Origin: an uncultured Bacteroidota bacterium | GTDB lineage: Bacteria; Bacteroidota; Bacteroidia; Flavobacteriales; Flavobacteriaceae | Length of the DNA: 41,902 nucleotides | Direction: 5' to 3' | NCBI GenBank assembly: GCA_902590705.1 | Contig: CACIXU010000016.1 | Span: 1-41,902, forward strand | Position numbers and translations under genes: made by a program | Part shown: positions 3,363-27,218 of the stretch, piece after piece | Numbering within the stretch: position 1 is the first letter of the stretch | Layout: each line of letters begins with the position of its first letter | Notes under the pieces: generated by a model | Databases searched by the model: none | Seen by the model: only the letters and a program-made list of their open reading frames with translations | What the model was told of the DNA's origin: nothing

Positions 3363-3364
3363 TT

Positions 3365-5751: not shown

Positions 5752-5753
5752 AA

Positions 5754-6221
5754 ATGAAACTAAGATCTCAAATCGATTCAGTATTGGAAAAAGCTCTTGT
5801 CTTTATTATGTCATTAATGGTTGTTAATGTATTGTGGCAAGTTTTTTCGCGATATCTTTTAGCTAACCCTAGCTCATTTACCGACGAATTGGCAAGATAC
5901 CTTATGATTTGGGTAGGAGTACTAGGAGCTGCCTATGTTGCAGGAAAGGGAAATCATGTTGCCATTACCTACTTTTCAGAAAAATTTAGTGCATCAAATT
6001 TTAAAAGAGTTAAGTTGGCAATAAATCTTATCATAATGGGTTTTGCTTTTTTAGGTATGTTTATTGGGGGTTTACGTTTGGTATACATCACTTTAATATT
6101 AGAACAGCTTTCACCTTCGCTCAAGATCCCTCTTGGATTAGTTTATGCAGTAATACCCTTGAGTGGTACTTTGATTATTTTCTATAAAGTCTTAGATTTA
6201 AAAAACATGCGTTATGATTGA
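5754..6221 (+). CDS. dctQ: TRAP transporter small permease, DctQ
   Basis: A 155-residue membrane protein with four predicted helices (about residues 14-33, 47-64, 88-110 and 125-146). The conserved FTDELARYLMIW segment of DctQ proteins lies between the first two helices. With the DctM subunit it forms the sodium-driven inner-membrane transporter that takes ligand from the DctP receptor. Its last 8 bp overlap the start of dctM, which supports co-translation. The length is normal for a stand-alone DctQ. Confidence 0.95.
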   Translation: MKLRSQIDSVLEKALVFIMSLMVVNVLWQVFSRYLLANPSSFTDELARYLMIWVGVLGAAYVAGKGNHVAITYFSEKFSASNFKRVKLAINLIIMGFAFLGMFIGGLRLVYITLILEQLSPSLKIPLGLVYAVIPLSGTLIIFYKVLDLKNMRYD

Positions 6222-7512: not shown

Positions 7513-7523
7513 AAAATTACATA

Positions 7524-8702: not shown

Positions 8703-8711
8703 ATAAAATTG

Positions 8712-9752: not shown

Positions 9753-9759
9753 CTTAATT

Positions 9760-10428
9760 ATGGCAAAATTTACAAGATTAGAAGTAGCAATGAAAATGAT
9801 AGAGACTGGTATGGTTCCATTATTCTATCATGGTGATATTGAAGTCGCTAAAAAAACCTTAAAAGCGTGCTATCAAGGTGGTGCAAGATTATTAGAATTT
9901 ACGAGCAGGGGGGACTTTGCTCACCATATTTTTGAAGAGTTGAACAAGTATGTGCTAGCTGAACTTCCAGAAATGATTTTAGGAGTAGGATCAATTACCA
10001 ATGCTGCTGCTGCATCACTTTATATGCAATTGGGAGCTAATTTTATAGTTACTCCAGTTTTAAGAGAAGATATTGCTCAAGTATGTAATAGAAGAAAGGT
10101 TCTTTGGTCCGCAGGATGCGGCTCATTATCAGAAATTGCAAAGGCAGAGGAATTAGGTGGAGAAATAATTAAATTATTTCCTGGAAGCACCTATGGTCCA
10201 GATTTTGTTAAGGCGATTAAAGGACCTCAGCCATGGACAAGTATTATGCCAACAGGTGGAGTGAGCACCGAAGAGGATAACTTAAAATCCTGGTTTGACG
10301 CTGGTGTAGTTTGTGTAGGAATGGGGTCAAAATTAATATCCAAAGAAGTTTTGGCTAATCATGATTTTGAGGCCCTAGAAAATAGGGTTAAAATCACATT
10401 GGCATTAATTCAAAAATTAAAAAAATAA
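9760..10428 (+). CDS. kdgA: KDPG/KHG aldolase
   Basis: A 222-residue class I aldolase that splits KDPG into pyruvate and glyceraldehyde-3-phosphate. The catalytic Glu46 lies in LLEFTSRG and the Schiff-base Lys138 in IIKLFPGSTYGP. The phosphate-binding PTGGVS motif follows. A longer frame opens at a GTG (9721) inside kdgK, but ATG 9760, 7 bp after the kdgK stop, gives the normal family N-terminus and is chosen. It joins both uronate branches of the operon to central metabolism. Confidence 0.96.
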   Translation: MAKFTRLEVAMKMIETGMVPLFYHGDIEVAKKTLKACYQGGARLLEFTSRGDFAHHIFEELNKYVLAELPEMILGVGSITNAAAASLYMQLGANFIVTPVLREDIAQVCNRRKVLWSAGCGSLSEIAKAEELGGEIIKLFPGSTYGPDFVKAIKGPQPWTSIMPTGGVSTEEDNLKSWFDAGVVCVGMGSKLISKEVLANHDFEALENRVKITLALIQKLKK

Positions 10429-10429
10429 A

Positions 10430-11272
10430 ATGAACGATAACTATAGTGTTCGCTATGCAATAGGACCCCGAGAGACTAATCAAATGGGGACGAAAGCATT
10501 ACGAGATGAATTTTTGATTAATCAGGTTTTTGGAATTGATCAAATCAATTGGATTTACACCCATTATGATCGATACCTTGTCGGTGGGGTTATTCCAAAA
10601 AATACAGTGGTTAAATTAGAAACTATTGATCCTCTAAAAGCAAACTTTTTTCTTGAAAGACGTGAAATGGGTATCATTAATGTTGGTGGAAATGGCTCTG
10701 TTACTGCTGATGGCGTCAACTACATTCTAGGGTATAAAGAAGCACTTTACTTAGGTAGGGGAACAAAAGAAGTTTCTTTCTGTAGTAATGAGATTTCATC
10801 TCCAGCAAAGTTTTATATAAACTCAACCCCTGCTCATCAAGCATACCCTAGTAGAAAAGTAGGTAGAGATGAAGCAGAAATTGTAGACCTAGGAACATCT
10901 GAAACTGCAAATGCCCGAACCATCAGGAAACTGATAGTTAACAGTATTTTACCGACATGCCAGTTACAAATGGGAATGACTGAACTAAAGTCCGGTTCAG
11001 TATGGAATACAATGCCAGCTCATGTACATGATAGAAGGATGGAAGTTTATTTTTATTTTGAAGTTCCTGAGGATCAAGCTGTTTGTCATTTTATGGGAGC
11101 ACCAAATGAAACAAGACATATATGGATGGCAAATGAACAAGCGGTTATTTCACCCCCTTGGTCTATTCATGCTGGATCTGGGACATCGAACTACATATTT
11201 ATTTGGGGAATGGCAGGCGAAAATCTAGATTATGGAGATATGGACGGCTGTCCAATACCCAGTTTAAGATAA
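10430..11272 (+). CDS. kduI: 4-deoxy-L-threo-5-hexosulose-uronate ketol-isomerase
   Basis: A 280-residue cupin-fold enzyme that converts 5-keto-4-deoxyuronate (the rearranged unsaturated uronate from lyase products) to 3-deoxy-D-glycero-2,5-hexodiulosonate. The zinc ligands expected from E. coli KduI are present: His198 and His200 in PAHVHDRRMEVYFYF, Glu205, and His247 in WSIHAGSG. The family ending FIWGMAGENLDYGDMD is intact. It begins one base after the kdgA stop and is followed by kduD after 5 bp. Its presence implies that the cell receives delta-4,5-unsaturated uronates, hence a polysaccharide lyase outside the window. Confidence 0.97.
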   Translation: MNDNYSVRYAIGPRETNQMGTKALRDEFLINQVFGIDQINWIYTHYDRYLVGGVIPKNTVVKLETIDPLKANFFLERREMGIINVGGNGSVTADGVNYILGYKEALYLGRGTKEVSFCSNEISSPAKFYINSTPAHQAYPSRKVGRDEAEIVDLGTSETANARTIRKLIVNSILPTCQLQMGMTELKSGSVWNTMPAHVHDRRMEVYFYFEVPEDQAVCHFMGAPNETRHIWMANEQAVISPPWSIHAGSGTSNYIFIWGMAGENLDYGDMDGCPIPSLR

Positions 11273-11277
11273 AACAT

Positions 11278-12072
11278 ATGAGTACATCATTATTTGATTT
11301 AACTGGAAAGATTGCTTTGGTAACTGGTGCTACCCACGGACTAGGAATGGCAATGGCTAGAGGTATTGGAAGGGCAGGAGCCAAGGTAATTATTAATGGG
11401 AATAGCTCGCAACAGAAAATAGATAATGCAGTATCCGAATTTATCCAGGAGGGGATTGACGCCTATGGCTATCGTTTTGATGTAACTGACGAAAAATCTG
11501 TAATGGATTCTGTAGGTAAAATTGAATCGGAGGTTGGTCCAATTGATATTTTAGTAAATAACGCTGGCATTATAAAGCGAACACCACTGACTGATATGGC
11601 AGTCGAAGATTTTAAGGAAGTTATCAATGTAGATTTGATAAGTCCTTTTATTGTTTCAAAATCTGTAATTAAGGGAATGGTTGCAAGAAAATCAGGTAAA
11701 ATAATAAATATTTGTTCTATGATGAGTGAGTTGGGTAGAAACACCGTCGGTGCCTATGCTGCGGCAAAAGGCGGACTAAAAATGCTTACAAAAAATATGT
11801 GTGTTGAATGGGCAAGACATAACATACAAGTAAATGGAATAGGACCTGGTTATTTTGCAACAGAACAAACTAAACCTATCCGTGTTAATGGAAACCCTTT
11901 TAACGAGTTCATTGTTAATAGAACTCCATCAGGAGCATGGGGAGAACCAGATCAGCTTCAAGGAGCTGCTGTTTTTCTTAGTTCAAAGGCAAGTGATTTT
12001 GTAAATGGACAAATTATTTATGTTGACGGTGGAATCCTAGCAACAATTGGCAAACCCAACAATGAGGTTTGA
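11278..12072 (+). CDS. kduD: 2-deoxy-D-gluconate 3-dehydrogenase
   Basis: A 264-residue short-chain dehydrogenase that reduces 3-deoxy-D-glycero-2,5-hexodiulosonate to KDG with NADH. It has TGATHGLG at residues 16-23, NNAG at 94-97, and the triad Ser147, Tyr160, Lys164. The frame extends upstream into kduI, but ATG 11278, 5 bp after the kduI stop, gives the family start (LFDLTGKIALVTG) and is chosen. It is the last gene of the operon: the next gene, galM, converges from the other strand with 71 bp between the stops. No clear GC-rich terminator is visible in that gap. Confidence 0.94.
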   Translation: MSTSLFDLTGKIALVTGATHGLGMAMARGIGRAGAKVIINGNSSQQKIDNAVSEFIQEGIDAYGYRFDVTDEKSVMDSVGKIESEVGPIDILVNNAGIIKRTPLTDMAVEDFKEVINVDLISPFIVSKSVIKGMVARKSGKIINICSMMSELGRNTVGAYAAAKGGLKMLTKNMCVEWARHNIQVNGIGPGYFATEQTKPIRVNGNPFNEFIVNRTPSGAWGEPDQLQGAAVFLSSKASDFVNGQIIYVDGGILATIGKPNNEV

Positions 12073-12143: not shown

Positions 12144-13280
12144 TTAATCAGCTACTGAAAATTTATAAATACTCTTTGTTTGGTATATGTCCCCTGGTAA
12201 AAGTATAATATTTGGAAAAGATAGTTGATTGGGTGAGTCCGGGAAATGCTGAGTTTCTAATGCAAATGACTCTCGGTATAAAAATTTCTTACCGTATTTA
12301 CCAATATCAGATCCATCCATAAAATTCCCCCCATAAAATTGAATACCGGGTTCCTCAGTGAATATATCCATTCTTCGTCCAGTTTTAGGGTCTATAACGT
12401 ATCCAGCTAAACTCATCTCTCTGTCATTCTCTTTGTTGAGAACAAAATTATGGTCGTAACCTCCACCATAGTTCATTTGAATATCTGTTTTTTGTTGGTT
12501 GAGATCTCTTCCTATGGTTTTCGGTATCCTAAAATCAAAAGGTGTCCCCTCGACAGACCTATTTTCACCAAGTGGAATTAGAGTTTCATCGACTGGTGTG
12601 AAGTGGTCTGCATTTAGCCTTAGGAGGTGGTCGTTGATTGTTCCACTTGCTTCTCCAGCAAGATTAAAAAAAGCGTGATTGGTTAAATTAACCGGTGTTG
12701 ATTTATCTGTTGTCGCCTTGTAGGAGATCAATAGTTCGTTTTCATTGTTTAGAGAATATTTTACCTGCACATCCAGATTTCCTGGATAGCCCATTTCACC
12801 ATCCTTTGAAAAGTAGCTCATGGAGATGGAGGATTGATCGAATGCTTTTACTTCCCAAACCTGATTATGAAACCCCTCTGGCCCACCATGTAGGTGATTT
12901 TCGTTGTTATTGATTGGTAAACTATAAGTTTTACTATCCAATGTGAATTTACCTTTGGCTATACGATTTCCAACTCTTCCAATCAAGGCACCGTGATAAG
13001 TGCCATTTGCGCTAAGGTAATCGTCAATACTTTTGAAGCCTAAAACCACATCACCCATTTGGCCATTGCGATCAGGTGTAAGGAGGCTAACAATTCTACC
13101 ACCATAGTTGGTTATGTAAACTTTGATTTTATCATTTTTTAAGAGGTAAAGATTCGTGACCTTACCATCAATAGTCTTTTGGAAATCAGATGCGTTCAAA
13201 ATAAATTCTTCTTTTGAATTATAAGTGCAAAATACAAACAAAAATAAAAGGGAGATTATTGATAATCGATTAAAGTTCAT
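12144..13280 (-). CDS. galM: Aldose 1-epimerase, exported lipoprotein
   Basis: A 378-residue mutarotase. The leader ends FLFVFC (Cys18), a slightly atypical lipobox, so a periplasmic lipoprotein is likely. The active-site segments are NHLHGGPEGFHNQVW (His129/His131), TNHAFFNL (His202), GGYDHNFVL, and FALETQHFPDSPN (Glu341, the expected general base). It interconverts alpha and beta anomers of a hexose such as galactose. It lies 22 bp downstream of the GH2 gene on the same strand, so it most likely equilibrates the beta-anomeric sugar that the GH2 enzyme releases (inference). Confidence 0.93.
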   Translation of the reverse strand: MNFNRLSIISLLFLFVFCTYNSKEEFILNASDFQKTIDGKVTNLYLLKNDKIKVYITNYGGRIVSLLTPDRNGQMGDVVLGFKSIDDYLSANGTYHGALIGRVGNRIAKGKFTLDSKTYSLPINNNENHLHGGPEGFHNQVWEVKAFDQSSISMSYFSKDGEMGYPGNLDVQVKYSLNNENELLISYKATTDKSTPVNLTNHAFFNLAGEASGTINDHLLRLNADHFTPVDETLIPLGENRSVEGTPFDFRIPKTIGRDLNQQKTDIQMNYGGGYDHNFVLNKENDREMSLAGYVIDPKTGRRMDIFTEEPGIQFYGGNFMDGSDIGKYGKKFLYRESFALETQHFPDSPNQLSFPNIILLPGDIYQTKSIYKFSVAD

Positions 13281-13302: not shown

Positions 13303-15177
13303 TTATTCTCTATAAAGAGGTGAATGCATTTCATTTAAAATCTTTACAGGAATCTTAATTACCTCTCTATCATATGTCATTAGCCCATTGAGTTCTCCTT
13401 CAACATCAGTCGTTTGAGTATAAACCGCTCCTGAAAGACCATTTTTTTTCATGTCAATTATTTGATTAAACTTACATAAATAATTACTAGCTAGGTCATC
13501 TTTAGTCATTGCACTTTGGTATTTTTTTGTTAGTTTCATGGAGTGATCCTCAATTTTTAGTCCAATTCCTCCAAATTCGCCTATTACCGTTGCTTGATTT
13601 AAATTTACCGGATCTCTCAAATTTAAAGATGGGGGCCTTATTAACTCTACTTCATAGGTGTGAATGTCATAAATGTCTCCGCAGTTTCTTAAAGACCATC
13701 CACTAGTTGGGATAACTAATCTCGAAGGATCTAATCCTTTAACTAAATCACTAATTCTGCAGGTATCGTATTGTCCCCAACCTTCGTTAAATGGAACCCA
13801 AACAACAATACTTGGCGAATTAAAGTGAATATTAATCATTTTTCTTAGCTCCGTTTCAAATTGAATAGATTCAGCAATATTTTTATATAAATCCTCATCA
13901 TTTCTTCCCACATTTTGCAATGGTGTATGATACTTATTGTCTCGCTTCTTTGTTGATGGCCCATTAATTTTTTTAACCATTTTTCCTCCAGATGGCATGT
14001 CTTGCCAGACTAAAATTCCTAACCTATCACAATGAAAATACCATCGATCAGGTTCAATTTTCACATGTTTACGAATCATATTAAAGCCCATGGCTTTAGT
14101 TATTTCAATGTCGTAACGCATCGCCTCATCAGATGGAGGAGTTAAAAGACCACCAGGCCACCACCCTTGGTCCAAAGTTCCATAATGAAAAAGTGGTTTA
14201 TTATTTAAAAATAAATATTTAGCACCATTATGATCCCCAAGACTAATTTTTCGCATTCCGAAATAGCTATTAACCTGATCAATTATTTTTCCTTTGGGGT
14301 TTGTTAAAGTTAGCTTAAGGTCATAAATATTTGGATTATTGGGAGACCATAATTTTGGGTCTTTTATTTCTAGTTCTATTGAATTGTTGGCAGAAACTGA
14401 TCCCTCTACAATTTTTGATTTATTTTTATATACTGAGGCTTTCACTTTGTATCCACTTCGAAGGGCTTCATTTCCAAATGGAATAATTTTTACTGTTCCT
14501 TTATCAATATCAGTAGTTATTTTTACTTCCCCTAAATATGCTTCTTCCGACACTGCTTCCAACCAAACTGTTTGCCAAATTCCACTAACTGGTGTGTACA
14601 TGATTCCACTTGGGTTGTATCTTTGCTTACCTCTAAGTTGTGAGCTTAAATTCGTGGCATCTTTCACTGAGACGACTAATTCCTGACCATTTTCCTGGAT
14701 CAAGTAATCAGTAATATCAAATGAAAAACGATCAAATCCTCCCTTATGGGACCCAACAAAAATATCATTTAACCATACATTAGTGTCATGATCAACCGCC
14801 TCAAAATTCAATAAAATCCTTTTACCCTTCCATTCACTTGGTATGATGAATTTTTTTCTGTACCACATTTTGTCTTCTGGGGTAATACTTTTTCCTACAC
14901 CTGATAACGCAGATTCAAAACTAAATGGAACTAAAATCTTACCCTCATAGCTTTTTGGTTTTGGTTGATTTGGTTTAAGTATTACATAATCCCACATTCC
15001 ATTGAGATTTTTCCATGTTGATCTTTCAAATTGTGGTCTGGGGTATTCCTGCCAGACATTTTCTGGAGTTACTTCCTTCGCCCACCGGCTCATGATTTTT
15101 CCATCGAGAGGTTGCCATTCTTGACAAAAAGAATTAAGTACCACGAGAAAAGCAAGAGGTAAAAAGTTTGGTTTCAT
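13303..15177 (-). CDS. Glycoside hydrolase family 2
   Basis: A 624-residue secreted glycosidase with a signal peptide (hydrophobic residues 7-18). It has the GH2 layout: a jelly-roll sugar-binding domain (about 45-205, including DTNVWLND), an Ig-like domain (about 210-310), and a TIM barrel. The acid/base Glu465 is in PFNEGWGQYD and the nucleophile is most likely Glu534 in IGEFGG. GH2 enzymes are retaining beta-galactosidases, beta-glucuronidases, beta-mannosidases and others; the specificity cannot be read here. It is compact for the family. galM follows 22 bp downstream. Given the uronate operon across the convergent boundary, beta-glucuronidase or beta-galactosidase are the leading options. 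Confidence 0.92.
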   Translation of the reverse strand: MKPNFLPLAFLVVLNSFCQEWQPLDGKIMSRWAKEVTPENVWQEYPRPQFERSTWKNLNGMWDYVILKPNQPKPKSYEGKILVPFSFESALSGVGKSITPEDKMWYRKKFIIPSEWKGKRILLNFEAVDHDTNVWLNDIFVGSHKGGFDRFSFDITDYLIQENGQELVVSVKDATNLSSQLRGKQRYNPSGIMYTPVSGIWQTVWLEAVSEEAYLGEVKITTDIDKGTVKIIPFGNEALRSGYKVKASVYKNKSKIVEGSVSANNSIELEIKDPKLWSPNNPNIYDLKLTLTNPKGKIIDQVNSYFGMRKISLGDHNGAKYLFLNNKPLFHYGTLDQGWWPGGLLTPPSDEAMRYDIEITKAMGFNMIRKHVKIEPDRWYFHCDRLGILVWQDMPSGGKMVKKINGPSTKKRDNKYHTPLQNVGRNDEDLYKNIAESIQFETELRKMINIHFNSPSIVVWVPFNEGWGQYDTCRISDLVKGLDPSRLVIPTSGWSLRNCGDIYDIHTYEVELIRPPSLNLRDPVNLNQATVIGEFGGIGLKIEDHSMKLTKKYQSAMTKDDLASNYLCKFNQIIDMKKNGLSGAVYTQTTDVEGELNGLMTYDREVIKIPVKILNEMHSPLYRE

Positions 15178-15343: not shown

Positions 15344-16390
15344 ATGAATAGTAGAAGAAGTTTTATTAAAAAAGCTGCTTTAGCATCAGGTTTAGCAGTC
15401 AGTTCAATTCAGCCAATATTTGGAATTATATCTAGAAAAAGAGACGAAAATCCAATTATTGGGCATGGTACTCACAAATATAAAGTTGATAAAAATTGGG
15501 GAGTACAAGACCCCAGTCAGTTTCCAGTTAAGGACTGTCATGAGATGGTGATGGATAAAAATCAAAGACTAATAATGACTACTACTCACCCTAAGAATAA
15601 CATATTAATTTATGACAGATCAGGAAAAATTTTAAATACTTGGGGTACAGATTATCCTGGAGCTCATGGGCTTACCATAGTTGAAGAAGGCGGAGAGGAG
15701 TTCTTGTTTATCACAGACCCCAAATCCAGAAAGGTTTGTAAAACTAACTTAAAAGGGGAATTATTAATGACTTTTAATAAACCCATTGAAATTCCTGAAT
15801 ATCAAAATTCAAAAAAATTTAAACCTACTGAAACCGCTATAGCCCCAAATGGAGACATTTATATTGCCGATGGTTATGGAATGGATTTTATCATTCAATA
15901 TGATTCAAAAGGTAATTATATTCGACATTTTGGTGGACATGGTAAAGGCAAGGATAAGTTTGAGTGCTGTCACGGCATTACAGTGGATAAAAGAGACAGT
16001 AACAACCCAACACTTTTAATTACTTCCAGAAGTGCAAATGAATTTAAGCGATTTACTATGGATGGTCAGCACATTGAAACTATAAAATTACCTGGATGTT
16101 ATATTTGTAGACCCGTAATAAAGGATGATTTAATCTATTTTGCAGTTATAATAACCAATAATTGGGATACATACGATGGAATGATAGCAGTTTTGGATAA
16201 AAACAATAAGGTTATTTCCTTTCCTGGGGGCAATAAACCCAATTATCTTGACGGCAAATTGGTTCCTCCTGTTTATGATAATATGACGTTTTTTAATCCA
16301 CACGATGTTTGTTTGGATAATGAAGAAAACATTTATGTTCCTCAATGGAACTCAAATAAAACTTATCCTTTAAAGCTTGAGAGGGTTTAA
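15344..16390 (+). CDS. Tat-exported NHL-type six-bladed beta-propeller protein
   Basis: A 348-residue protein starting at ATG 15344; an in-frame TTG 13 codons upstream would only lengthen the leader. The N-terminus has a twin-arginine signal (SRRSFIKKAA followed by a hydrophobic stretch). The body shows repeated NHL-like blades, for example ILIYDRSGKILNTWG, APNGDIYIADGYG, IIQYDSKGNYIRHFGG and NPHDVCLDNEENIYVPQW. The fold is shared with peptidyl-hydroxyglycine amidating lyases and with many uncharacterised sugar-locus proteins. It is the first gene of a + run with DUF1080, GH109-like and Gfo/Idh genes. Tat export suggests a folded or cofactor-containing protein. Its activity is unknown; a lyase or a scaffold or binding role is possible. 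Confidence 0.8.
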   Translation: MNSRRSFIKKAALASGLAVSSIQPIFGIISRKRDENPIIGHGTHKYKVDKNWGVQDPSQFPVKDCHEMVMDKNQRLIMTTTHPKNNILIYDRSGKILNTWGTDYPGAHGLTIVEEGGEEFLFITDPKSRKVCKTNLKGELLMTFNKPIEIPEYQNSKKFKPTETAIAPNGDIYIADGYGMDFIIQYDSKGNYIRHFGGHGKGKDKFECCHGITVDKRDSNNPTLLITSRSANEFKRFTMDGQHIETIKLPGCYICRPVIKDDLIYFAVIITNNWDTYDGMIAVLDKNNKVISFPGGNKPNYLDGKLVPPVYDNMTFFNPHDVCLDNEENIYVPQWNSNKTYPLKLERV

Positions 16391-16409
16391 TCTAAAGAAA
16401 TATATACTC

Positions 16410-17102
16410 ATGAAAAATTTTTATTTAATTATAGTTTTAATGTCACTTTATGCTTGTCAAGAGAAAGAGATTAGATTATTTAATTCCAATGACCTTGATG
16501 GATGGGTCAACTATGGAGGTGGTAAATTTTATGTTGAAGATGGTTGTATTGTTGCGGAATCCATTTATGAATTGCCAAATACATTTTTACATACTGAAAA
16601 AAAATACAAAGATTTTATCCTAGAATTCGATGTTAAATTAGATACAGTTTTAAACTCAGGGGTTCAAATAAGGAGTAACATTTATAAAAAACAAACTACT
16701 ACAGATAGATGGGGAGGGCTTTTTGACAAGGAAGGAAATAAATTGATTATGAAACGTACTTGGATGGCTGGAAGGTTTTGGGGGTATCAAATAGAAATTG
16801 ACCCAACTAGTCGCTCATGGAGTGGAGCCATCTATGAAGAAGGAGGTAGAGGATTTCTTCATACTCCTGGAATAAATGAAAAGGTTAAGGCTGCTTTTAA
16901 ACCATTGCAATGGAATCATTTTAAAGTTTACGTTAAGGGAGACCACATCCAGTCATGGATAAATGACGTAATGATAGCCGATGTATATGATAACTTAACT
17001 ACGGATGGTTACATTGCCTTGCAATTGCATGGAATTGGACAGAATTCTTTGAAGGTAAATAAGAAGATTCGTTGGAAAAATTTAATATTGAAAGTTCTAT
17101 AA
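16410..17102 (+). CDS. DUF1080 lipoprotein (3-keto-disaccharide hydrolase family)
   Basis: A 230-residue lipoprotein starting at ATG 16410 with lipobox LYAC. A TTG start upstream would overlap the previous gene and is rejected. The rest is a concanavalin-like DUF1080 domain (PF06439): LFNSNDLDGWVNYGGG at the start, DFILEFDVKL and NSGVQIRSN in the core, and GYIALQLHG near the end. Family members cleave glycosidic bonds of sugars already oxidised to a ketone at C3. Its neighbours include two exported oxidoreductases that could make that ketone. It begins 19 bp after the propeller gene. It is a paralogue of the gene at 18831. Confidence 0.88.
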   Translation: MKNFYLIIVLMSLYACQEKEIRLFNSNDLDGWVNYGGGKFYVEDGCIVAESIYELPNTFLHTEKKYKDFILEFDVKLDTVLNSGVQIRSNIYKKQTTTDRWGGLFDKEGNKLIMKRTWMAGRFWGYQIEIDPTSRSWSGAIYEEGGRGFLHTPGINEKVKAAFKPLQWNHFKVYVKGDHIQSWINDVMIADVYDNLTTDGYIALQLHGIGQNSLKVNKKIRWKNLILKVL

Positions 17103-17113
17103 ATACTGATTAA

Positions 17114-17332
17114 TTGGATAGATTTTTTTCTGCTTTTCTTGGGATATTTTTAATAATTGGATGCGAAGAAAATTTAAAAAAGGATAATGATTGTTTAGGT
17201 CCATTAAAAAGCATTGCGTGTACTAAAGAGTATGCTCCTGTGTGTGGATGTGACAACAAGACTTATTCAAACGACTGTGTTGCCGAGTCTTTTGGTCTTA
17301 TGATGTGGGAAGAGGGAGCCTGTTCACAATAA
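17114..17332 (+). CDS. Kazal-type protease inhibitor lipoprotein
   Basis: A 72-residue protein with lipobox LIIGC followed by a short linker and one Kazal domain. The six cysteines follow the family order: NDC, IAC, the APVCGC pair, SNDC and GAC, with the CGCDNKTYSNDC core. The only usable start is TTG at 17114, because an in-frame stop (TAA 17111-17113) lies immediately before it and the next Met is deep inside the domain. It sits 11 bp after the DUF1080 gene on the same strand. Kazal domains block serine proteases. A role in protecting surface or periplasmic enzymes from proteases is plausible but untested. Confidence 0.85.
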   Translation: MDRFFSAFLGIFLIIGCEENLKKDNDCLGPLKSIACTKEYAPVCGCDNKTYSNDCVAESFGLMMWEEGACSQ

Positions 17333-17421
17333 TTTAATTATAATTTAGTGACATTTTTAATATTTTATTATAATCTCAAAAAAAATTTATAATTAGTTAA
17401 CTTATTAAAACCTCGATTTTA

Positions 17422-18822
17422 ATGAAGAATATAGGCAGAAGAAATTTTTTAAAAAAAACTTCATTATCAGCTGCTGCATTTGCGGCAACCCCATTGATTC
17501 CGTCATGTGAGGACACTAATAATACAATACCAAGATCAGGAGGAAAATATATGGGCGATTTTATTGCTCCAAAACTAAATAATGTAAGAATAGCCTTTAT
17601 TGGTGTTGGCCATAGGGGAGGTGGGCATTTGAGTTACTTGGCAAATATTCCTGGAACTGAAGTGGTAGCAATAAGCGACCTTTATGAAGACAAAGTTAAA
17701 CAAAGCCTAAAAACGGTTCATCAACTAACAAATTACAATCAACATAATAATATTGAAACATATTGGGGTTCTGAAATCAAATGGAAAATCATGCTGCAGG
17801 AAGTAAAACCTGACGCTGTATTTATTTCGACTAACTGGAAAAATCATGCTCCAATGGCAATTGAATCGATGAAAAATGGAGCTCATGCATTTGTAGAGGT
17901 TCCACTTGCGACATCAATTAAAGATCTCTGGTCAATTATTGACACCTCAGAGAGAACCCAGAGACACTGTATGATGATGGAAAATGTTAACTATGGAAGA
18001 ACAGAGTTGATGTACTTGAATATGTGTCGAAATGGCCTAATTGGTGATTTTTTACATGCTGAAGCAGCTTACATTCATGAGTTAAGGTGGCAAATGAATG
18101 AAGTTGATCGTGGCACAGGTTCGTGGCGAACCCCCCAATATGCCTTTGGAAAAGGAAATCTTTATCCTACTCATGGACTTGGTCCTGTAGCACAGTATAT
18201 GAGTTTAGCTAGGACTGATGACAATTTTAAAAGCTTAGTTTCTTATTCATCACCTGCTTTAGGAAGAGCCATTCATGCAAAAAAAAACTTTTCCGATGAC
18301 CACAAATGGAATCAACTAGATTATAAAAATGGAGATATGAATACTTCTATTATTAAAACTGTAATGGGACGGACAATAATGGTTCAATGGGATGAGACGA
18401 GTCCCAGACCTTACTCTCGATTGAATCTTATTCAGGGGACAAAAGGGGTATTAGCTGGTTTTCCTACTCGTATGGCTATTGAGGGAGGCTTAGATGGGCT
18501 TTCTGATGACCATCACGAGTGGATTGAAGGTAATCAGCTTGAAAAAGTTTATCAGAAATACGATCATCCATTATATAATAGACTAAATAAAAAATCTGAA
18601 GGTAGTGGACATGGAGGCATGGATGGAATTATGAGATATCGCATTATTGAATGTCTACAGAAGGGCTTATCACTTGATCAAAATGTCTATGAGGGAGCTT
18701 TTTGGAGTGCTGTGACAGAATTAAGTGGACGTTCTATTGATCAAAACGGTGCTCCTCAACAATTCCCGGATTTTACTCGGGGAAATTGGAAATCAACAAA
18801 ACCTCTTGGAATAATTAATTAA
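17422..18822 (+). CDS. GH109-like NAD-dependent glycosidase, Tat-exported
   Basis: A 466-residue Gfo/Idh-fold protein. The leader has twin arginines (GRRNFLKKTS) and ends IPSC, which could be a Tat lipobox. The Rossmann motif GVGHRG is at residues 61-66. The rest carries the GH109 blocks: TNWKNHAPMAIESM, FVEVPLA, HCMMMENVNYGR (Glu187, Tyr191), AAYIHELRW (Tyr217, His219), and NLYPTHGLGPVAQYM (Tyr248, His251). These correspond to the active-site region of the Elizabethkingia alpha-N-acetylgalactosaminidase (residue mapping from memory). GH109 enzymes cleave by transient C3 oxidation, elimination, water addition and re-reduction with bound NAD. The substrate here is unknown; GalNAc is only the family precedent. 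Confidence 0.85.
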   Translation: MKNIGRRNFLKKTSLSAAAFAATPLIPSCEDTNNTIPRSGGKYMGDFIAPKLNNVRIAFIGVGHRGGGHLSYLANIPGTEVVAISDLYEDKVKQSLKTVHQLTNYNQHNNIETYWGSEIKWKIMLQEVKPDAVFISTNWKNHAPMAIESMKNGAHAFVEVPLATSIKDLWSIIDTSERTQRHCMMMENVNYGRTELMYLNMCRNGLIGDFLHAEAAYIHELRWQMNEVDRGTGSWRTPQYAFGKGNLYPTHGLGPVAQYMSLARTDDNFKSLVSYSSPALGRAIHAKKNFSDDHKWNQLDYKNGDMNTSIIKTVMGRTIMVQWDETSPRPYSRLNLIQGTKGVLAGFPTRMAIEGGLDGLSDDHHEWIEGNQLEKVYQKYDHPLYNRLNKKSEGSGHGGMDGIMRYRIIECLQKGLSLDQNVYEGAFWSAVTELSGRSIDQNGAPQQFPDFTRGNWKSTKPLGIIN

Positions 18823-18830
18823 AATAAGAA

Positions 18831-19550
18831 ATGAAGAAATTTTTTTTCGTGATTGTGATTTGCCTGTTTATTTCTTGTAAACAAGCGTCAAAAAAAAATG
18901 CCTTTGAATGGATAAGTCTATTTGATGGAACGTCACTTAATGGTTGGCGAGCTTATAATGGGGACGAAATGCCCCCTGGATGGATGATTATTGACAGTGT
19001 TTTGACCTTTACTACTGATCAAATAATGGAGGAAGATTATGATTATAAAGGCAGTAGGGATATTATATATGGTGCTTCTGAATTCGATAATTTTGAACTT
19101 TATCTTGAGTGGAAAATTCCTAAAGGTGGAAACAGCGGAATTTTTTATCACCTAAAGGAAGGCTATGACGGTCCACCGGAAGTTGCTCCTGAATATCAAT
19201 TACTTGACGATAAAAACTATGAGGAGGTTCATAATTATAAGCTAAAAGATTGGCAAAAAACTGGAGCAGATTATGCCATGCATATACCTGATACATTAGA
19301 AAAAAAATTAAATCCTGTTGGTGAATGGAATAGTAGCAGCATAGTTTTTACCCCAGAAAGTGTGGAACATTGGCTAAATGGAAGGAAAATTTTATCATTT
19401 GTTCCTTGGTCAGAGGATTGGTATAAAAGAAGAAATTCAGGTAAATGGAGTGATGCGCCAGATTACGCGAAATACAAAACAGGGTTTATAGGTCTTCAAG
19501 ATCATGGAAGCAATCTATATTTTAGAAATATAAAAATTAAAAAGCTTTAA
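18831..19550 (+). CDS. DUF1080 lipoprotein (3-keto-disaccharide hydrolase family)
   Basis: A 239-residue lipoprotein with lipobox LFISC (Cys16). The domain is DUF1080: WISLFDGTSLNGWRAYN near the start, DFNFELYLEW-like strands with KGGNSGIFYHLKEG, EYQLLDD in the middle, and TGFIGLQDHGSNLYFRNIKIKKL at the end. This is the more typical form of the family, while the copy at 16410 is more diverged. It starts 8 bp after the GH109-like gene and ends 11 bp before the Gfo/Idh gene, so the three are co-transcribed. The expected role is cleavage of 3-keto glycosides in the periplasm or at a membrane face. Confidence 0.92.
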   Translation: MKKFFFVIVICLFISCKQASKKNAFEWISLFDGTSLNGWRAYNGDEMPPGWMIIDSVLTFTTDQIMEEDYDYKGSRDIIYGASEFDNFELYLEWKIPKGGNSGIFYHLKEGYDGPPEVAPEYQLLDDKNYEEVHNYKLKDWQKTGADYAMHIPDTLEKKLNPVGEWNSSSIVFTPESVEHWLNGRKILSFVPWSEDWYKRRNSGKWSDAPDYAKYKTGFIGLQDHGSNLYFRNIKIKKL

Positions 19551-19561
19551 ATACTCGAACC

Positions 19562-20902
19562 ATGAAAAAAAGAGATTTTTTGAAAACATCTGCTATAGCT
19601 GCCTCGTCAGTTTTTTTACCAAAATCATTAATGTCACACGAACAATCTTCAAAAAAAATAAGGACTGCCCATATTGGAGTTGGTGGCATGGGGTTTGAAG
19701 ATCTAAAGGCAATAAGTTCTCATGAGCATGTTGAGATTGTTGGTCTATGTGATGTAGATTCAGAGGCACTGGTTAAATCTAAGTCAAGGTTTCCCAATGT
19801 CAAAACTTACAAAGATTATAGAGTCATGTTGAATGAGTTATCGGATAAAATTGATGCTGTAATTATTTCAACTCCAGACCATACTCATGCTCCTGCAGCA
19901 ATTATGGCCATGAAAAAAAATAAAGCTGTTTACTGTCAAAAACCTCTAGCCCATCATGTATCTGAGGTTAGGGAGATGCGGAAAATCGCAGAAGAGAAAA
20001 ATTTAATCACTCAAATGGGAATTCAAGTTCACTCTTTTTACGATTATAAATTAGCTACTCTATTGATTCAGTCTGGCATCGTAGGAAGAGTAAGTCGAGT
20101 AATTGCCTGGTCTCCGAAGAACTGGGGATATGATGGTCAAAACCCTAAAGGAGTTGACCCTGTTCCCTCAAATTTAGACTGGAACTTGTGGTTAGGCACT
20201 GCAGAAAAACGTCCATTTAAAGAAAAAATCTATCATCCAGGTAATTGGAGAAAACTTGTCGATTTTGGTTGTGGAACACTCGGAGATATGGGGGTTCATA
20301 TTTTTGATACTCCATACAATGCACTAGATTTAGATGTTCCCAAAAGAATTACAAATAAATGTAGAAAACCCACTGGATTTGGTTATCCAGAATCTAATAA
20401 AGTTACTTATGTTTTTCCTGGGACTAAATTCACAACTGATGAATTGGAATGGATATGGTATGATGGCAAAGGAGCCCCTCATTTACATAAGGAACTAAGA
20501 CTACCAAATAAAGATAAATTACCCCTTCAAGGAGCTATGTTTGTTGGTGAAAAAGGACGTCTGCTTCTTCCACATTTTATGGAACCACCAAAATTGATTG
20601 TAAATGGAACATATCAAAAAATTGATGTAAAACATTACGACCCTAAGGGTGATCTCGGACCTAAATTAAATGATTATAAGAGAGATGCTCCCAAACATTA
20701 TCATCAATTTATTGATGCATGTTTGGGGAAAGATAAAGTTTCAGCTCCTTTCTCTTACTCTGCTAGATTGACTGAAACAATTTTACTAGGAGTTATTGCA
20801 GGGAGATTCCCAAATAAAACCTTGCATTGGGATAGTAAAAAAGCTCAATTTAAGGAGCTTGAAGCAAATTTTTTCTTAAAAGGAGTCGAAAGAAGTTTTT
20901 AA
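19562..20902 (+). CDS. Exported Gfo/Idh/MocA family oxidoreductase
   Basis: A 446-residue NAD(P)-dependent oxidoreductase with a Tat-like leader (KKRDFLKTSAIAASS, one Lys replacing the first Arg). The Rossmann motif GVGGMG is at residues 39-44. The usual EKP motif is QKP here (Lys127). The block GTLGDMGVHIFDTPYNAL and the C-terminal HYHQFIDACLGKDKVSAPF segment are typical of the Bacteroidota/Planctomycetota exported subgroup. Together with the two DUF1080 genes it fits an oxidise-then-eliminate scheme at sugar C3. Its last 4 bp overlap the convergent DoxX gene. Confidence 0.9.
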   Translation: MKKRDFLKTSAIAASSVFLPKSLMSHEQSSKKIRTAHIGVGGMGFEDLKAISSHEHVEIVGLCDVDSEALVKSKSRFPNVKTYKDYRVMLNELSDKIDAVIISTPDHTHAPAAIMAMKKNKAVYCQKPLAHHVSEVREMRKIAEEKNLITQMGIQVHSFYDYKLATLLIQSGIVGRVSRVIAWSPKNWGYDGQNPKGVDPVPSNLDWNLWLGTAEKRPFKEKIYHPGNWRKLVDFGCGTLGDMGVHIFDTPYNALDLDVPKRITNKCRKPTGFGYPESNKVTYVFPGTKFTTDELEWIWYDGKGAPHLHKELRLPNKDKLPLQGAMFVGEKGRLLLPHFMEPPKLIVNGTYQKIDVKHYDPKGDLGPKLNDYKRDAPKHYHQFIDACLGKDKVSAPFSYSARLTETILLGVIAGRFPNKTLHWDSKKAQFKELEANFFLKGVERSF

Positions 20903-21345
20903 ATTTTTCGTTTAGTTTTAGAGGTAATTAAGTTATCTAAACTATATTTTCCAGGACCATTCAATAATATAAAAAAACTTAAAAATAGATAAAGTAAAGG
21001 AAGCTCACTTCCTCCAATTCCAGCTTGTAAAAGCTTTTTAGTGCAAGCAACTAGCATGGTGAAAAACAGTAAAAATGCCATAGGACGTGTTAGTATACCG
21101 AATACTATAAAAAGTGAACCGATAGACTCAGCAAAAGCTGCCATAAAACCTAAGGGAATAGATAAAGCATCAGTACCTGTAAATTGAGTAATTGTCGCTC
21201 CCAATCTGTACCAACGATCACTATCGCTCATAAGTTTTGACCAGCCATGGAAATAACACATAAAAAATCCAGTAACTAAACGAACTAATAAGTAGGATTT
21301 TGAGGAAAAAAAATAGGATGGATTAAATAAAAAAAATGAACTCAT
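20899..21345 (-). CDS. DoxX family membrane protein
   Basis: A 148-residue protein with four likely membrane helices and the DoxX layout: LLVRLVTGFFMCYFHGWSKL, then AFAESIGSLFIVFGILTRPMAFLLFFTMLVA, and a final helix LLYLFLSFFILLNGPGKYSLD. DoxX proteins are small inner-membrane proteins linked to quinone or thiol redox balance, but most are uncharacterised. The gene converges on the Gfo/Idh gene with a 4-bp overlap of coding ends. The 153 bp upstream of it (to 21498) is AT-rich and holds no recognised gene. Confidence 0.87.
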   Translation of the reverse strand: MSSFFLFNPSYFFSSKSYLLVRLVTGFFMCYFHGWSKLMSDSDRWYRLGATITQFTGTDALSIPLGFMAAFAESIGSLFIVFGILTRPMAFLLFFTMLVACTKKLLQAGIGGSELPLLYLFLSFFILLNGPGKYSLDNLITSKTKRKI

Positions 21346-21498
21346 ATGCCAATGATTATTAAATTAAATTTTTTAAAAATAGAAACATGATTATTTTAAG
21401 CTCAATATCATATTAATATACAATTTATATTTCTAATTAGTGATTAGTTAATTGAGCACGAGTTTATATTTCAAGAATATCTAACTAGGCAGATGAAT

Positions 21499-21942
21499 TC
21501 AGTTATTAATTGAATTGCTTTTTTGATCTGTTTTTGTAGTACAGCAATCCTCTGATTTACACTGGCAATAATTTAGATTATAAATATGAAAAAATATGAG
21601 TGAAGAGGTGGTAATGTAAACAATTAATTCGGCTATGGGTAACCACGAAATTTTTTCATTAATTATCAAAAAAAATAAAATCACCCAACTGATCCATAAT
21701 GCATATTTAATTAAACCATTATTTGAAAGTCTTGTTGAACGATAAATTGCAAAAAAAGATAAAGTCAAAAAGAATATGTCTAGGTTTTTCCACCATGTAA
21801 GTAATTCAGCACCATATCCAGAAGAAAGGCCTTGCAAAGCAAATAATACAGGTGTAAAAATGCAATGCATAAGACAAAGTCCACTTGCTATTGCTCCAAC
21901 AGTATCAGGTTTATTCAGACTTAAATTGATAATTGAATTTTT
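21499..21942 (-). CDS. MerC-domain membrane protein, start uncertain
   Basis: The open frame runs from the codon after a stop at 21943-21945 down to 21499. The first ATG (21870-21868) lies inside the conserved core: the codons before it read LNKPDTVGAIASGLCL and join MHCIFTPVLF, which is how MerC-family proteins begin their first helix. The true start is therefore upstream, yet no ATG, GTG or TTG exists there; ATT (21933), ATC (21930) or CTG (21918) are the options. The body has about four helices and a Cys-rich tail (NYCQCKSEDCCTTK), suggesting metal or thiol binding. The role is unknown; MerC relatives carry mercury. The coordinates give the maximal open frame; from ATG it would be 123 residues. 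Confidence 0.6.
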   Translation of the reverse strand, partial: KNSIINLSLNKPDTVGAIASGLCLMHCIFTPVLFALQGLSSGYGAELLTWWKNLDIFFLTLSFFAIYRSTRLSNNGLIKYALWISWVILFFLIINEKISWLPIAELIVYITTSSLIFFHIYNLNYCQCKSEDCCTTKTDQKSNSINN

Positions 21943-24323: not shown

Positions 24324-25811
24324 ATGAATTTGTCAATTAATTTAATATTAGCTCTGATTTTAGTTTTTATCGCTGGGTGTCAAAAAGGTAATTTTGAAAA
24401 ACTAAAACCTAATATCGTAGTAATTTTTATAGATGATATGGGTTATGGAGACATTAGTTGTTTTGGAGATCAAACTATTAATACTCCAAATATAGATGCA
24501 TTGGCAGATAGCGGAATAATATTTACAAATTTTTACGTTAATTCCCCAATTTGTTCTCCATCTCGAGTAGCCCTTAATACTGGAACATATCCTATGAGGC
24601 ACAGAATTCACTCATATATTGCTAGTTCGAAAAAAAATAAAAACCGAGCTATGGCTAATTATCTCGATCCGTCAGTAAGTACATTAGCTTCTACTCTAAG
24701 AGATAATGGTTATACTACAGGACATTTTGGAAAATGGCATATGGGAGGAGGAAGAGATCTAGGAGATGTTCCCCTTCCAACTGAATATGGCTTTGAAAAG
24801 TCATTTGTAAGCTTTGAGGGAGTGGGTGATCGTTTACTTTTCCCTAATGATAATTTAAGTAGGCAAAGTTCAAAACTTGGTAGAGGGAAAATAGTATGGG
24901 CTGAAAAGTATGAATCAACAAGAATCTATATTGATAGCGCACTCGCTTTTATTGACCGAAAAGGAGATAAACCTTTTTTTGTTAATCTCTGTCCCAACGA
25001 TATGCATGATCCGCATCTACCAGATTCTAGAGTCTTGGAAGAATTTGTTTTCTTAACAAACAACCCATGGGAGCAAAAGTTTTTTGCTGTGCTTAGAGAT
25101 TTAGATAATCAAATAGGAAGATTAATTAATTCACTTGATAAAAGAGGTCTTTTAGATAATACAATTATAGTTTTCACAAGTGATAATGGACCGACTGATT
25201 GGGGTAATTATTACGATATTGATAATTATCCAAAGGGGTATGAAGGAGAGCTTTATCCACCTGGATTCACAGGTGGATTTTTTGGAAGGAAGTGGAGTCT
25301 TTATGAAGGAGGAATAAGGATGCCTTTCATAATGCGTTGGGATTCAAAAATACCTAAATCTTCCAAGGATTCAACTTCAATAGTAACTGCAATGGACCTT
25401 TTCCCATCAATATGTTCCCTAATAGGTATAGAGTACCCAAAAAATTTAGATGGAATTGATAAAAGTAAATCTTTCCTGGGTTCCCCAATAGTCAATAAAT
25501 CTCCAGTTATGTGGGAATATTCAAGTAATCCAGGAGGATCAATAAAGCCTGGTGGAAGCTGGAATATTGACGGTTCGTTAAAACCAAAAAATAGAAGTTT
25601 TCATTCTCCTAATCTTGCTATTAGAGATGGAGATTGGAAATTGCTAATAAATACAGATTTGACAGGGGAGATGTTGTACAATTTAAAAACTGATCCTGGT
25701 GAAAAAACAAATCTAGCTGACAAAGAACAAGAAATTGTTAAAGAATTAAAGGATAAAGTTATTGAATGGAGGAAATCTATGCCCGTTGAAATACCCAAAA
25801 ACATTCAATGA
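24324..25811 (+). CDS. Sulfatase, S1 family, lipoprotein
   Basis: A 495-residue sulfatase with an excellent lipobox (FIAGC, Cys19). The metal-binding IDDMGYGD segment is near residues 36-43. The maturation motif CSPSR starts at Cys77, which must be oxidised to formylglycine. GHFGKWHMGGG, TSDNGPTDWG and a YEGGIRMPF block complete the active site. It removes sulfate esters from a carbohydrate outside the inner membrane; the position and sugar are unknown. The second sulfatase starts 3 bp after its stop. No formylglycine-generating enzyme or anaerobic maturase is encoded in the window. Confidence 0.95.
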   Translation: MNLSINLILALILVFIAGCQKGNFEKLKPNIVVIFIDDMGYGDISCFGDQTINTPNIDALADSGIIFTNFYVNSPICSPSRVALNTGTYPMRHRIHSYIASSKKNKNRAMANYLDPSVSTLASTLRDNGYTTGHFGKWHMGGGRDLGDVPLPTEYGFEKSFVSFEGVGDRLLFPNDNLSRQSSKLGRGKIVWAEKYESTRIYIDSALAFIDRKGDKPFFVNLCPNDMHDPHLPDSRVLEEFVFLTNNPWEQKFFAVLRDLDNQIGRLINSLDKRGLLDNTIIVFTSDNGPTDWGNYYDIDNYPKGYEGELYPPGFTGGFFGRKWSLYEGGIRMPFIMRWDSKIPKSSKDSTSIVTAMDLFPSICSLIGIEYPKNLDGIDKSKSFLGSPIVNKSPVMWEYSSNPGGSIKPGGSWNIDGSLKPKNRSFHSPNLAIRDGDWKLLINTDLTGEMLYNLKTDPGEKTNLADKEQEIVKELKDKVIEWRKSMPVEIPKNIQ

Positions 25812-25814
25812 GTT

Positions 25815-27218
25815 ATGCCAATAAAAAAAAAATTACTTCTAGGTTTAGTTTTATTTTTATCGTTTTCAAAAAACATTAATTGTCAAACACATAAATCAAA
25901 AAAACCCAATATTATACTAATAGTAGCTGATGACTTGGGTTGGAATGATGTAAGTTTTAATGGTAGTGATATTTCAACTCCTTCGATAGACTCTCTTGCC
26001 TCACAAGGGGTTTTTCTCAATCGATTTTATGTTTCGCCTAAATGTAGCCCAACAAGAGCTGGTGTTCTAACAGGAATCTATCCAGATCGTTTTAATTTAA
26101 GGGGGTATGTTTATTCTACAAGATACGTAGGGGGTTTACCTCCTGATTTGATAATTTTACCAGAAATGTTAAAAAAAGCAGGTTATAATGAGCTTGCTGC
26201 CTTTGGTAAATGGCACCTTGGCCACTCGAATCATAAATTCCATCCAATTAGTCAAGGGTTTACATCCTTTTATGGCCATTATAATGGTGCAATAGATTAC
26301 TACAGTCATTTAAGAGATGGTGAACTTGACTGGCATAAAGATTATAAAACTTCTTATGATGTAGGCTATTCTACAGATCTTATTGGTTCTGAGGTAGTAA
26401 GGTTTATATCAAATACAGATGAAAGTAATCCTTTTTTTGCATATGTTGCTTTTAACGCTCCCCATTCTCCTATGCAAGCAAAATTAGAAGAATTGGAAAA
26501 ATATAATTATGACCCTAATGGTGAGGAAGATAAATATTTAATTGTTGAGGGGCATAAAGGAGAAATGGGTATGGACGTATATGGATTAAAGGGAAGAGGT
26601 AATAATTTAAGACAAACCTATTCTGCAATGGTTTCATCAATGGATTCATGGATTGGTAAAATAATGAATTCAATTAGGGCAAAAGGGATAGAGAATAATA
26701 CGATTATATGGTTTTTAAGTGATAATGGTGGGATTCCTAAATATGGGGGTAATAATTTTCCGCTTCGTGGTGGTAAACACACTCAGTGGGAGGGAGGAGT
26801 TAGAGCTATTTCTGTCGTAAAGTGGCCAGATAAAATTAAACCTGGAACTGAATCTAACCAACTTACTTCATACATTGATATAATGCCTACATTCGAAAAC
26901 ATTGTTGGTTTACCTGCCTCAAAAGACATTGATGGAATAAATATTTTTGATGCATTTAATAATAAAAAGCTACCTCCACGTCATATTTACTTGGGTAAAG
27001 ATGCAATAGTTTCCAAAAAATGGAAGATGAATCAAGGTGAGCTTTTTAGGATAGAAGATGATATCTCTGAGAGAAACGATTTATCATTTGAAAATCCGAG
27101 TGTAGTAAAAAAATTAACAAAGCTCATAAATCATTATAAGGAAATGTTACCTGGTGGGAAACCACCCACTCACCCCATAGGATGGAGGCCTCCAAAAAAT
27201 TGGAAAATGCCTAAATAA
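25815..27218 (+). CDS. Sulfatase, S1 family (arylsulfatase A/B type)
   Basis: A 467-residue secreted sulfatase with a signal peptide (about residues 1-23, ending NINCQ). It has VADDLGWNDVS for metal binding, the maturation motif CSPTR with Cys77, AFGKWHLGHS, and LSDNGGIPKYGG. The segment FPLRGGKHTQWEGGVRA resembles arylsulfatase B/GalNAc-4-sulfatase-type enzymes. The two adjacent sulfatases differ in localisation (lipoprotein versus secreted) and in the residue before the Arg of the motif (Ser versus Thr), so they likely remove different sulfates in sequence. The transporter gene follows after 21 bp. Confidence 0.95.
   Translation: MPIKKKLLLGLVLFLSFSKNINCQTHKSKKPNIILIVADDLGWNDVSFNGSDISTPSIDSLASQGVFLNRFYVSPKCSPTRAGVLTGIYPDRFNLRGYVYSTRYVGGLPPDLIILPEMLKKAGYNELAAFGKWHLGHSNHKFHPISQGFTSFYGHYNGAIDYYSHLRDGELDWHKDYKTSYDVGYSTDLIGSEVVRFISNTDESNPFFAYVAFNAPHSPMQAKLEELEKYNYDPNGEEDKYLIVEGHKGEMGMDVYGLKGRGNNLRQTYSAMVSSMDSWIGKIMNSIRAKGIENNTIIWFLSDNGGIPKYGGNNFPLRGGKHTQWEGGVRAISVVKWPDKIKPGTESNQLTSYIDIMPTFENIVGLPASKDIDGINIFDAFNNKKLPPRHIYLGKDAIVSKKWKMNQGELFRIEDDISERNDLSFENPSVVKKLTKLINHYKEMLPGGKPPTHPIGWRPPKNWKMPK

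Follow-up and report, generated by a model that had tools for sequence, protein, structure and literature searches.

The six-gene cluster and its predicted exported products

The genome of an uncultured marine Flavobacteriaceae bacterium (GenBank assembly GCA_902590705.1; 1.93 Mb, 59 contigs, 83% complete) contains a cluster of six genes that, on balance, we expect to encode a periplasmic oxidation–elimination route for the cleavage of glycosides. Its conserved unit is the pair formed by one of two DUF1080 genes, DUF1080-B, and a gene for a Gfo/Idh/MocA protein (Gfo). The stretch of DNA analysed, here called the window, is the entire contig 16 (CACIXU010000016.1; 41,902 nucleotides), in which the six genes are co-directional and separated by gaps of 19, 11, 89, 8 and 11 bases (plus strand, 15344–20902). 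Numbered loci (L) and genomes (G) are given where they are needed to tell relatives apart. Tat denotes twin-arginine translocation, and NAD nicotinamide adenine dinucleotide.

15344–16390, plus strand: NHL/DUF5128 propeller protein with a Tat leader (Pfam DUF5128/NHL)
16410–17102, plus strand: DUF1080-A lipoprotein (PF06439; Pfam, lipobox), proposed 3-keto-glycoside eliminase or hydratase
17114–17332, plus strand: Kazal-type lipoprotein with a TTG start (Kazal_1 match)
17422–18822, plus strand: GH109, predicted NAD-dependent glycosidase with a Tat leader (PF21252, identity to 6t2b)
18831–19550, plus strand: DUF1080-B lipoprotein (PF06439; Pfam, lipobox), proposed eliminase/hydratase and conserved partner of Gfo
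19562–20902, plus strand: Gfo/Idh/MocA protein with a Tat-like leader, proposed glycoside 3-dehydrogenase (Pfam, NF058561)

An earlier sequence-only reading had named these families at this place, and Pfam supports all six. It had also proposed export signals, which were found as predicted features using our own sequence patterns for leaders and lipoboxes. Twin-arginine leaders precede the propeller protein (SRRSFIK) and GH109 (RRNFLK, then IPSC), and lipoboxes are present in DUF1080-A (LYAC), DUF1080-B (FISC) and the Kazal protein (IIGC). The KRDFLK leader of Gfo looks like a variant of the Tat leader, since some of its orthologues in other genera (L044 and L092) read RRNFLK. TatC is encoded in the genome (206.7 bits), so that a twin-arginine leader and TatC are both in place for the predicted export.

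Gfo matches the N-terminal domain family PF01408 with 73.1 bits (cut-off 24), and its residues K127, D242 and H246 are conserved. The surrounding motifs, QKP and GDMGVH, are invariant in an 8-row alignment and align to EKP and GDMACH of 8tdf, which together with 8tdh is the best solved relative. The lysine of the (E/Q)KP motif and the aspartate and histidine of the C-terminal domain are presumably the motif residues of the Gfo/Idh/MocA family, to which the protein is assigned by these residues and by its PF01408 score. It also aligns over its full length (residues 3–440) with the model NF058561 (BT_2158_fam), with 317 bits. In a scan of genome contigs, from which the genome's own records may have been left out, the nearest titled record is MAG Flavobacteriaceae bacterium TMED121, at 90% identity.

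Both DUF1080 proteins belong to PF06439 (DUF1080-A, 125.4 bits; DUF1080-B, 162.5 bits; cut-off 26.8), a family with six genes in this genome, two of them in the cluster, yet they are only 23% identical to each other. The predicted model of DUF1080-A has a mean predicted local distance difference test (pLDDT) score of 79.7. With the Bacteroides protein BT3469 (4jqt), the A-type profile gives 159.5 bits for the N-terminal domain and 41.1 bits for the C-terminal one, and DUF1080-B has its best match in that protein at residues 222–430, in the C-terminal domain; the two types are fused there in one polypeptide. Because of this fusion, and because both types stand together before Gfo outside the genus (L108, L117 and L128), A and B probably act together. 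In the PDB, structures of DUF1080 relatives bear the titles 3-keto-glycoside eliminase/hydratase (8rr2 and 9fbe) and 3-keto-2-hydroxy-glucal-hydratase (8tda and 8v31), and because of these titles the Pfam name ‘hydrolase’ for PF06439 probably masks an elimination followed by a hydration. In one close relative (G019; L028, 10750–11470), DUF1080-B is broken by stops, through either sequencing error or decay.

GH109 contains the C-terminal domain PF21252 (176.2 bits, cut-off 27) and shares 56.4% identity with 6t2b (238 of 422 aligned positions). The catalytic residues of AmGH109A are Tyr226, His259 and His404, as given in the excerpted text of PMC10755693. They are matched by Tyr217, His251 and His397 of GH109, which are invariant in an 8-row alignment; the catalytic-residue spacings, 33 and 145, are the same as in the 6t2b numbering. 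The domain and the Tyr/His/His set together place the protein in family GH109, with a predicted glycosidase activity. A literature search for DUF1080 together with GH109 found no paper.

Conservation of the pair and separation of the modules

Orthologues were counted in 198 genomes, the window's own included, with E-value cut-offs of 1e-60, 1e-40 and 1e-30 (1e-30 for DUF1080-A) and at most 8–14 candidates per genome; the second piece of one split Gfo gene was not counted. Of the 43 places with a Gfo orthologue, 41 have DUF1080-B on the strand of Gfo and no more than 2.5 kb away: all 19 places in the genus, and 22 of the 24 outside it, in 21 other genera (22 with the window's own). The scan of genome contigs was assessed for the best 80 of 578 Gfo loci, all titled Bacteroidota, from which two at contig edges and one without a called Gfo open reading frame (ORF) were dropped. 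Among the 77 assessable loci, 58 have a DUF1080 gene of any type upstream on the same strand within 2.5 kb. DUF1080/Gfo pairs occur in marine Bacteroidota, including Arenibacter and Zobellia.

Within the genus, GH109 accompanies the pair at 18 of the 19 Gfo places, one of these being a GH109 fragment. Of the 24 Gfo places outside it, 2 have GH109 together with the pair within 2.5 kb, and 4 within 10 kb. At one locus outside the genus (L092, 5867–16960), GH109, DUF1080, GH2, Gfo, a protein with an FGE-sulfatase domain, an exported TIM barrel, a second Gfo and an esterase-like ORF form a run, with a DUF1501 protein and a cytochrome protein on the opposite strand; some labels at this locus were assigned by eye.

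All six genes are side by side without an insert in five genomes of one clade (100/100 support): the window and L027, L028, L029 and L030, the propeller gene of L027 being cut by the contig end and DUF1080-B of L028 being the broken copy. Elsewhere in the genus the set comes apart into modules. In L040 the trio of GH109, DUF1080-B and Gfo adjoins GH2, and the locus lacks the DUF1080-A, Kazal and propeller genes; the propeller gene is present in L042, from which DUF1080-A and Kazal are missing; and in L167 GH2 is accompanied by DUF1080-B and Gfo, and by neither DUF1080-A nor GH109. In G016 the DUF1080-A/Kazal genes (L160) and the GH109 trio (L036) are on separate contigs, and in G014 DUF1080-A and Kazal are present (L159), with no close GH109, DUF1080-B or Gfo found in that genome. 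L164 and L161 reach contig edges and are uninformative about the trio.

The six genes are not one fixed system, a candidate arrangement that was rejected by synteny, co-location and module maps alike. The co-occurrence proposed by the sequence-only reading stands for the DUF1080-B/Gfo pair, and inside the genus for GH109 with this pair; it fails for the six together, whose modules separate within the genus and whose GH109 is mostly unlinked outside it. DUF1080-A likewise drops out as part of a conserved set, since among the 198 genomes it reaches an E value of at most 1e-30 in 17, of which 16 belong to the genus and the last is at 41% identity.

The propeller and Kazal proteins take no assigned step in the proposed route. 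The propeller protein matches DUF5128 (33.5 bits, cut-off 22.9) and NHL (27.8 bits, cut-off 20). Its predicted model, built from a three-row alignment (predicted template modelling score 0.72, mean pLDDT 64.8), is closest in fold to 3fvz, a peptidyl-hydroxyglycine lyase, and then mostly to plain NHL domains. Assignment as a lyase was dropped in view of the weak model and of a solved-structure profile search that gave NHL proteins only. Histidines recur along the sequence, as read by eye, in CHEM, AHGL, CHGI and PHDV. The propeller gene is seen in L027–L031, L039, L042, L161 and L163, fewer loci than the Kazal gene, which adjoins DUF1080-A in the maps of relatives. The Kazal protein matches Kazal_1 with 33.0 bits (cut-off 21), and its lipobox cysteine and CTKEYxPVCGC core recur in the frames read at loci of 15 further genomes of the genus. 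A Kazal lipoprotein is also encoded outside the genus in L106 (match at 14683), on the opposite strand and about 3.3 kb after a pair of A-type DUF1080 and Gfo.

Gene setting and possible substrate

The cluster is flanked by the following genes:

2178–12072, plus strand: uronate operon of UxuA, UxaC, TRAP transporter (DctP/Q/M), DUF4861, PfkB kinase, KDPG aldolase, KduI and SDR (Pfam)
12144–13280, minus strand: aldose epimerase (Pfam), a divergent neighbour between the uronate operon and the island
13303–15177, minus strand: GH2 (Pfam), a divergent neighbour between the uronate operon and the island
24324–27218, plus strand: two sulfatases (Pfam Sulfatase; CSPSR and CSPTR motifs; lipobox on the first)

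Pfam thus identifies both sets of neighbours named by the sequence-only reading, the uronate catabolism genes and the sulfatases. Uronate genes, epimerase and GH2 lie beside one or another module of the island in L028, L040, L042, L159, L160, L164 and L167, and the order of epimerase and GH2 between operon and island is the same in L028, L040 and L042. Several other loci have GH2 alone within the flank, and in G016 the GH109 trio (L036) lies away from the uronate operon (L160). The orthologous sulfatase pair is seen only in the window's clade (L028, L029 and L030); other sulfatase hits, in L041, L043, L044 and L063, are 26–33% similar.

DoxX and MerC membrane genes (20899–21870) converge on the cluster, and DoxX is retained in twelve of the loci that were clustered. 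No SusC/SusD pair adjoins the cluster, the SusD/SusC pair of the window being at 37159–41836, 16 kb away. A promoter and terminator scan, which does not cover Bacteroidota promoters, gave no excess over shuffled sequences (20 against 23.5 expected, and 4 against 3.4).

The substrate may reasonably be guessed to be a sulfated uronate glycan. According to excerpts of PMC12269599, BcGH109 has activity on N-acetylgalactosamine and belongs to a Bacteroides caccae locus likely to target chondroitin, which makes a glycosaminoglycan-like chain one option. Chondroitin itself, suggested by GH109, PL8, GH88, KduI and the sulfatases alone, is not claimed, because the PL8 and GH88 genes of this genome are on other contigs. 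As labelled by eye, the PL8 lyase gene stands next to a sulfatase-like ORF on contig 3 (L284, 6933–10940) and the GH88 gene among several sulfatase-like ORFs on contig 20 (L285, 3955–15648).

A proposed periplasmic route, its alternatives and known systems

In the route that we favour, Gfo, exported in folded form with NAD through the Tat system, would oxidize a glycosyl residue at its C3 hydroxyl. Elimination by the DUF1080 lipoproteins, anchored in the membrane, would then split the 3-keto-glycoside to give a 2-hydroxy-3-keto-glycal, which the same lipoproteins would hydrate, A and B probably dividing elimination and hydration between them or acting on different linkages. The 3-keto sugar would be reduced back by the same dehydrogenase, or taken up. 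For GH109 we propose the same reactions at a single active site, with a terminal residue, possibly N-acetylgalactosamine, as the target. Uronate released by the route would be catabolised through the adjacent UxaC/UxuA/KduI/KDPG operon. A closed periplasmic redox cycle is in keeping with Tat export of an enzyme already folded and loaded with NAD, retention of the cofactor being expected from knowledge of the family, and redox-neutral cleavage would follow from the family mechanism. The analysis shows which genes and domains are present, the leader motifs, the intact catalytic residues and the conserved link between DUF1080-B and Gfo; we infer the substrate, the order of steps, the recycling of the cofactor and the division of labour. 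The proposal of exported 3-keto-type enzymes, made by the sequence-only reading, is supported by the full-length relation of Gfo to BT2158, the eliminase/hydratase titles of DUF1080 relatives and the intact catalytic residues of GH109. This 3-keto pathway is reportedly the subject of a paper by Nasseri et al. in Nature in 2024.

Several observations weigh against such a route. Gfo remains below the equivalog cut-off of NF058561 (317 against 750 bits), and two paralogues in the same genome score higher on this model (434 and 362 bits, both also below the cut-off); for these two reasons the substrate of Gfo may differ from that of BT2158. Among the best 80 of 578 Gfo loci, 19 of the 77 assessable ones have no DUF1080 gene within 2.5 kb upstream, and in 16 the DUF1080 protein has similarly low scores on our A and B profiles, possibly representing a third type; an Algoriphagus DUF1080 protein has similar scores on both. 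Excerpts of PMC9007349 report no lactose phenotype for ten Pedobacter DUF1080 genes, and those of PMC11501099 report no growth defect on raffinose-family sugars after deletion of BT2157 or BT2158. The predicted model of DUF1080-A also matches the sugar-binding module CBM66 (best E value 8.0e-9), and outside the genus DUF1080-B is within 2.5 kb of GH109 at only 3 of 18 places.

This last count, leaving 15 of the 18 places without DUF1080-B near GH109, and the separation of modules inside the genus (L040, L167, L160 and L036 of G016, and L159 of G014) speak for a different explanation, in which the island is a mosaic: GH2, GH109, the DUF1080-B/Gfo pair and the propeller/DUF1080-A/Kazal group would be separate modules by the uronate operon that need not share a substrate or pathway. 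We consider this unlikely, if still deserving weight, since GH109 stands with the pair at nearly every Gfo place of the genus, and the A and B types, fused in BT3469, also come together next to Gfo in distant genera. The CBM66 match would instead suit DUF1080 proteins that are sugar binders holding oligosaccharides, with GH109 and GH2 performing the cleavage and Gfo oxidizing the released sugars. Excerpts of PMC5673643 point the same way, with overlapping CBM66 annotation on five of nine Thermogutta DUF1080 proteins. The eliminase/hydratase titles of solved relatives speak against binding as their role, as do two reports in the excerpted text of PMC9007349, in which the DUF1080 protein BT2157 bears the name 3-ketotrehalose hydrolase and a DUF1080 gene of Caulobacter is described as important on lactose; that text knows of two characterised DUF1080 proteins of such architecture. 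Sugar binding in place of catalysis is improbable.

The remaining alternative, that oxidation is not redox-neutral and the electrons of the dehydrogenase go to a membrane complex, concerns a three-gene cassette of a PSCyt1-DUF1549-DUF1553 protein, a DUF1501 protein and a DUF2231-PSCyt1 membrane protein (Pfam names from L034 and L039). The cassette, or those of its genes left before the contig end, directly precedes GH109 in ten loci of the genus (L031–L037, L039, L041 and L062), and in Agaribacillus aureus (L120, 4840–11338) a fused DUF2231-PSCyt1-PSCyt2-PSD1 protein, DUF1501, DUF1080 and Gfo are encoded by four consecutive same-strand genes, the fused protein having a weak match to a GH2 sugar-binding domain. 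Both arrangements would suit electron transfer. Against it, DUF1080 was found in 0 of 40 DUF1501 windows (13–19 kb, 15 genomes, phylum-wide) and in 3 of 37 control windows. This test used our own profiles, not those of Pfam, and excluded 30 DUF1501 loci of 3–4 kb; the controls were mostly about 100 kb away on the same contigs, with one having a length of only 3.2 kb, two overlapping, and one of the three positives (L257) about 10 kb from another DUF1501 hit. The window's clade, moreover, has no cassette at the locus, although paralogues exist in the genome. We regard electron transfer to this complex as very improbable.

As these phylum-wide windows give no support for a general link between DUF1501 and DUF1080, the cassette was dropped as a general electron acceptor and is not read as part of the route. 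It is a conserved unit of its own, because a PSCyt2/PSD1 hit is present in 39 of the 40 DUF1501 windows (L201–L240). In the GH109 tree, the five cassette-less genomes nest in an otherwise cassette-bearing group (one row being unassessable), beside G005, which has it; the simplest explanation is therefore that the window's clade lost the cassette. In the incomplete genome of the window, no DUF1501 orthologue of at least 74% identity was found; this genome encodes three full-length DUF1501 paralogues at 48–51% and has five PSCyt1 hits. Literature searches for DUF1501 with DUF1080, and for DUF1501 with DUF1549 and DUF1553, found no paper. The DUF1501 protein of a sister species weakly matches the sulfatase at 24324–25811 (at 25077–25280; 35% over about 70 residues, E value 2.8e-4), a hint that DUF1501 proteins and sulfatases may be related.

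The periplasmic oxidation–elimination route remains the reading that we prefer. A more detailed form of it would split oxidative cleavage over four exported enzymes, with Gfo as the 3-dehydrogenase, a B-type eliminase, an A-type hydratase and GH109 for terminal hexosamines, which would dismantle a sulfated, uronate-bearing, glycosaminoglycan-like chain in the periplasm, NAD staying enzyme-bound and free uronate passing to the adjacent TRAP transporter; that all of these particulars hold is doubtful. Some bacteria encode many DUF1080 proteins, Thermogutta nine and this 1.9 Mb genome six; characterised members of the family are few. If the route is correct, the DUF1080/Gfo pair would carry 3-keto-glycoside cleavage beyond gut Bacteroides and into the turnover of marine glycans. 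The split into A and B types would offer a direct test of which DUF1080 protein eliminates and which hydrates.

Among the closest known counterparts is the BT2156–BT2160 system of B. thetaiotaomicron, in which the metabolism of disaccharides and glucosinolates requires BT2158, a glycoside 3-dehydrogenase of the periplasm, as stated in excerpts of PMC11300592. In a comparison that covers BT2157 and BT2158, the cluster resembles it in having DUF1080 and a full-length Gfo/Idh/MocA relative of BT2158, predicted to be periplasmic, and differs from it in the added GH109 and second DUF1080 type, the adjoining uronate genes and the Gfo score of less than half the equivalog cut-off. GH109 resembles AmGH109A (6t2b) and BcGH109, which are NAD-dependent N-acetylgalactosaminidases, with its 56.4% identity to 6t2b and all three catalytic residues, but here it stands with DUF1080-B and Gfo. 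BT3469, with its type A N-terminal and type B C-terminal domains, is one polypeptide, whereas the two types are separate lipoproteins in the cluster.

The lactose route of Caulobacter, consisting of LacABC and DUF1080, is similar in that an exported DUF1080 protein is proposed, in the excerpted PMC9007349 (Price et al. 2022), to act on a 3-keto sugar; the oxidant there is the membrane-bound LacABC, and here it would be an NAD-type Gfo protein. Neither a LacABC-type GMC dehydrogenase nor gluconate-dehydrogenase-3 is among the Pfam hits of the window's ORFs. Contig 11 of the same genome (L154, 4701–10142) encodes a GMC oxidoreductase, a Tat-like gluconate-dehydrogenase subunit 3, a Gfo/Idh protein, a xylose-isomerase-like TIM barrel and DUF1080, a second 3-keto-type locus that resembles LacABC/DUF1080 sets. 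The kind of route proposed for the cluster is known from gut Bacteroides, and here it would use a different combination of genes beside those of uronate breakdown.

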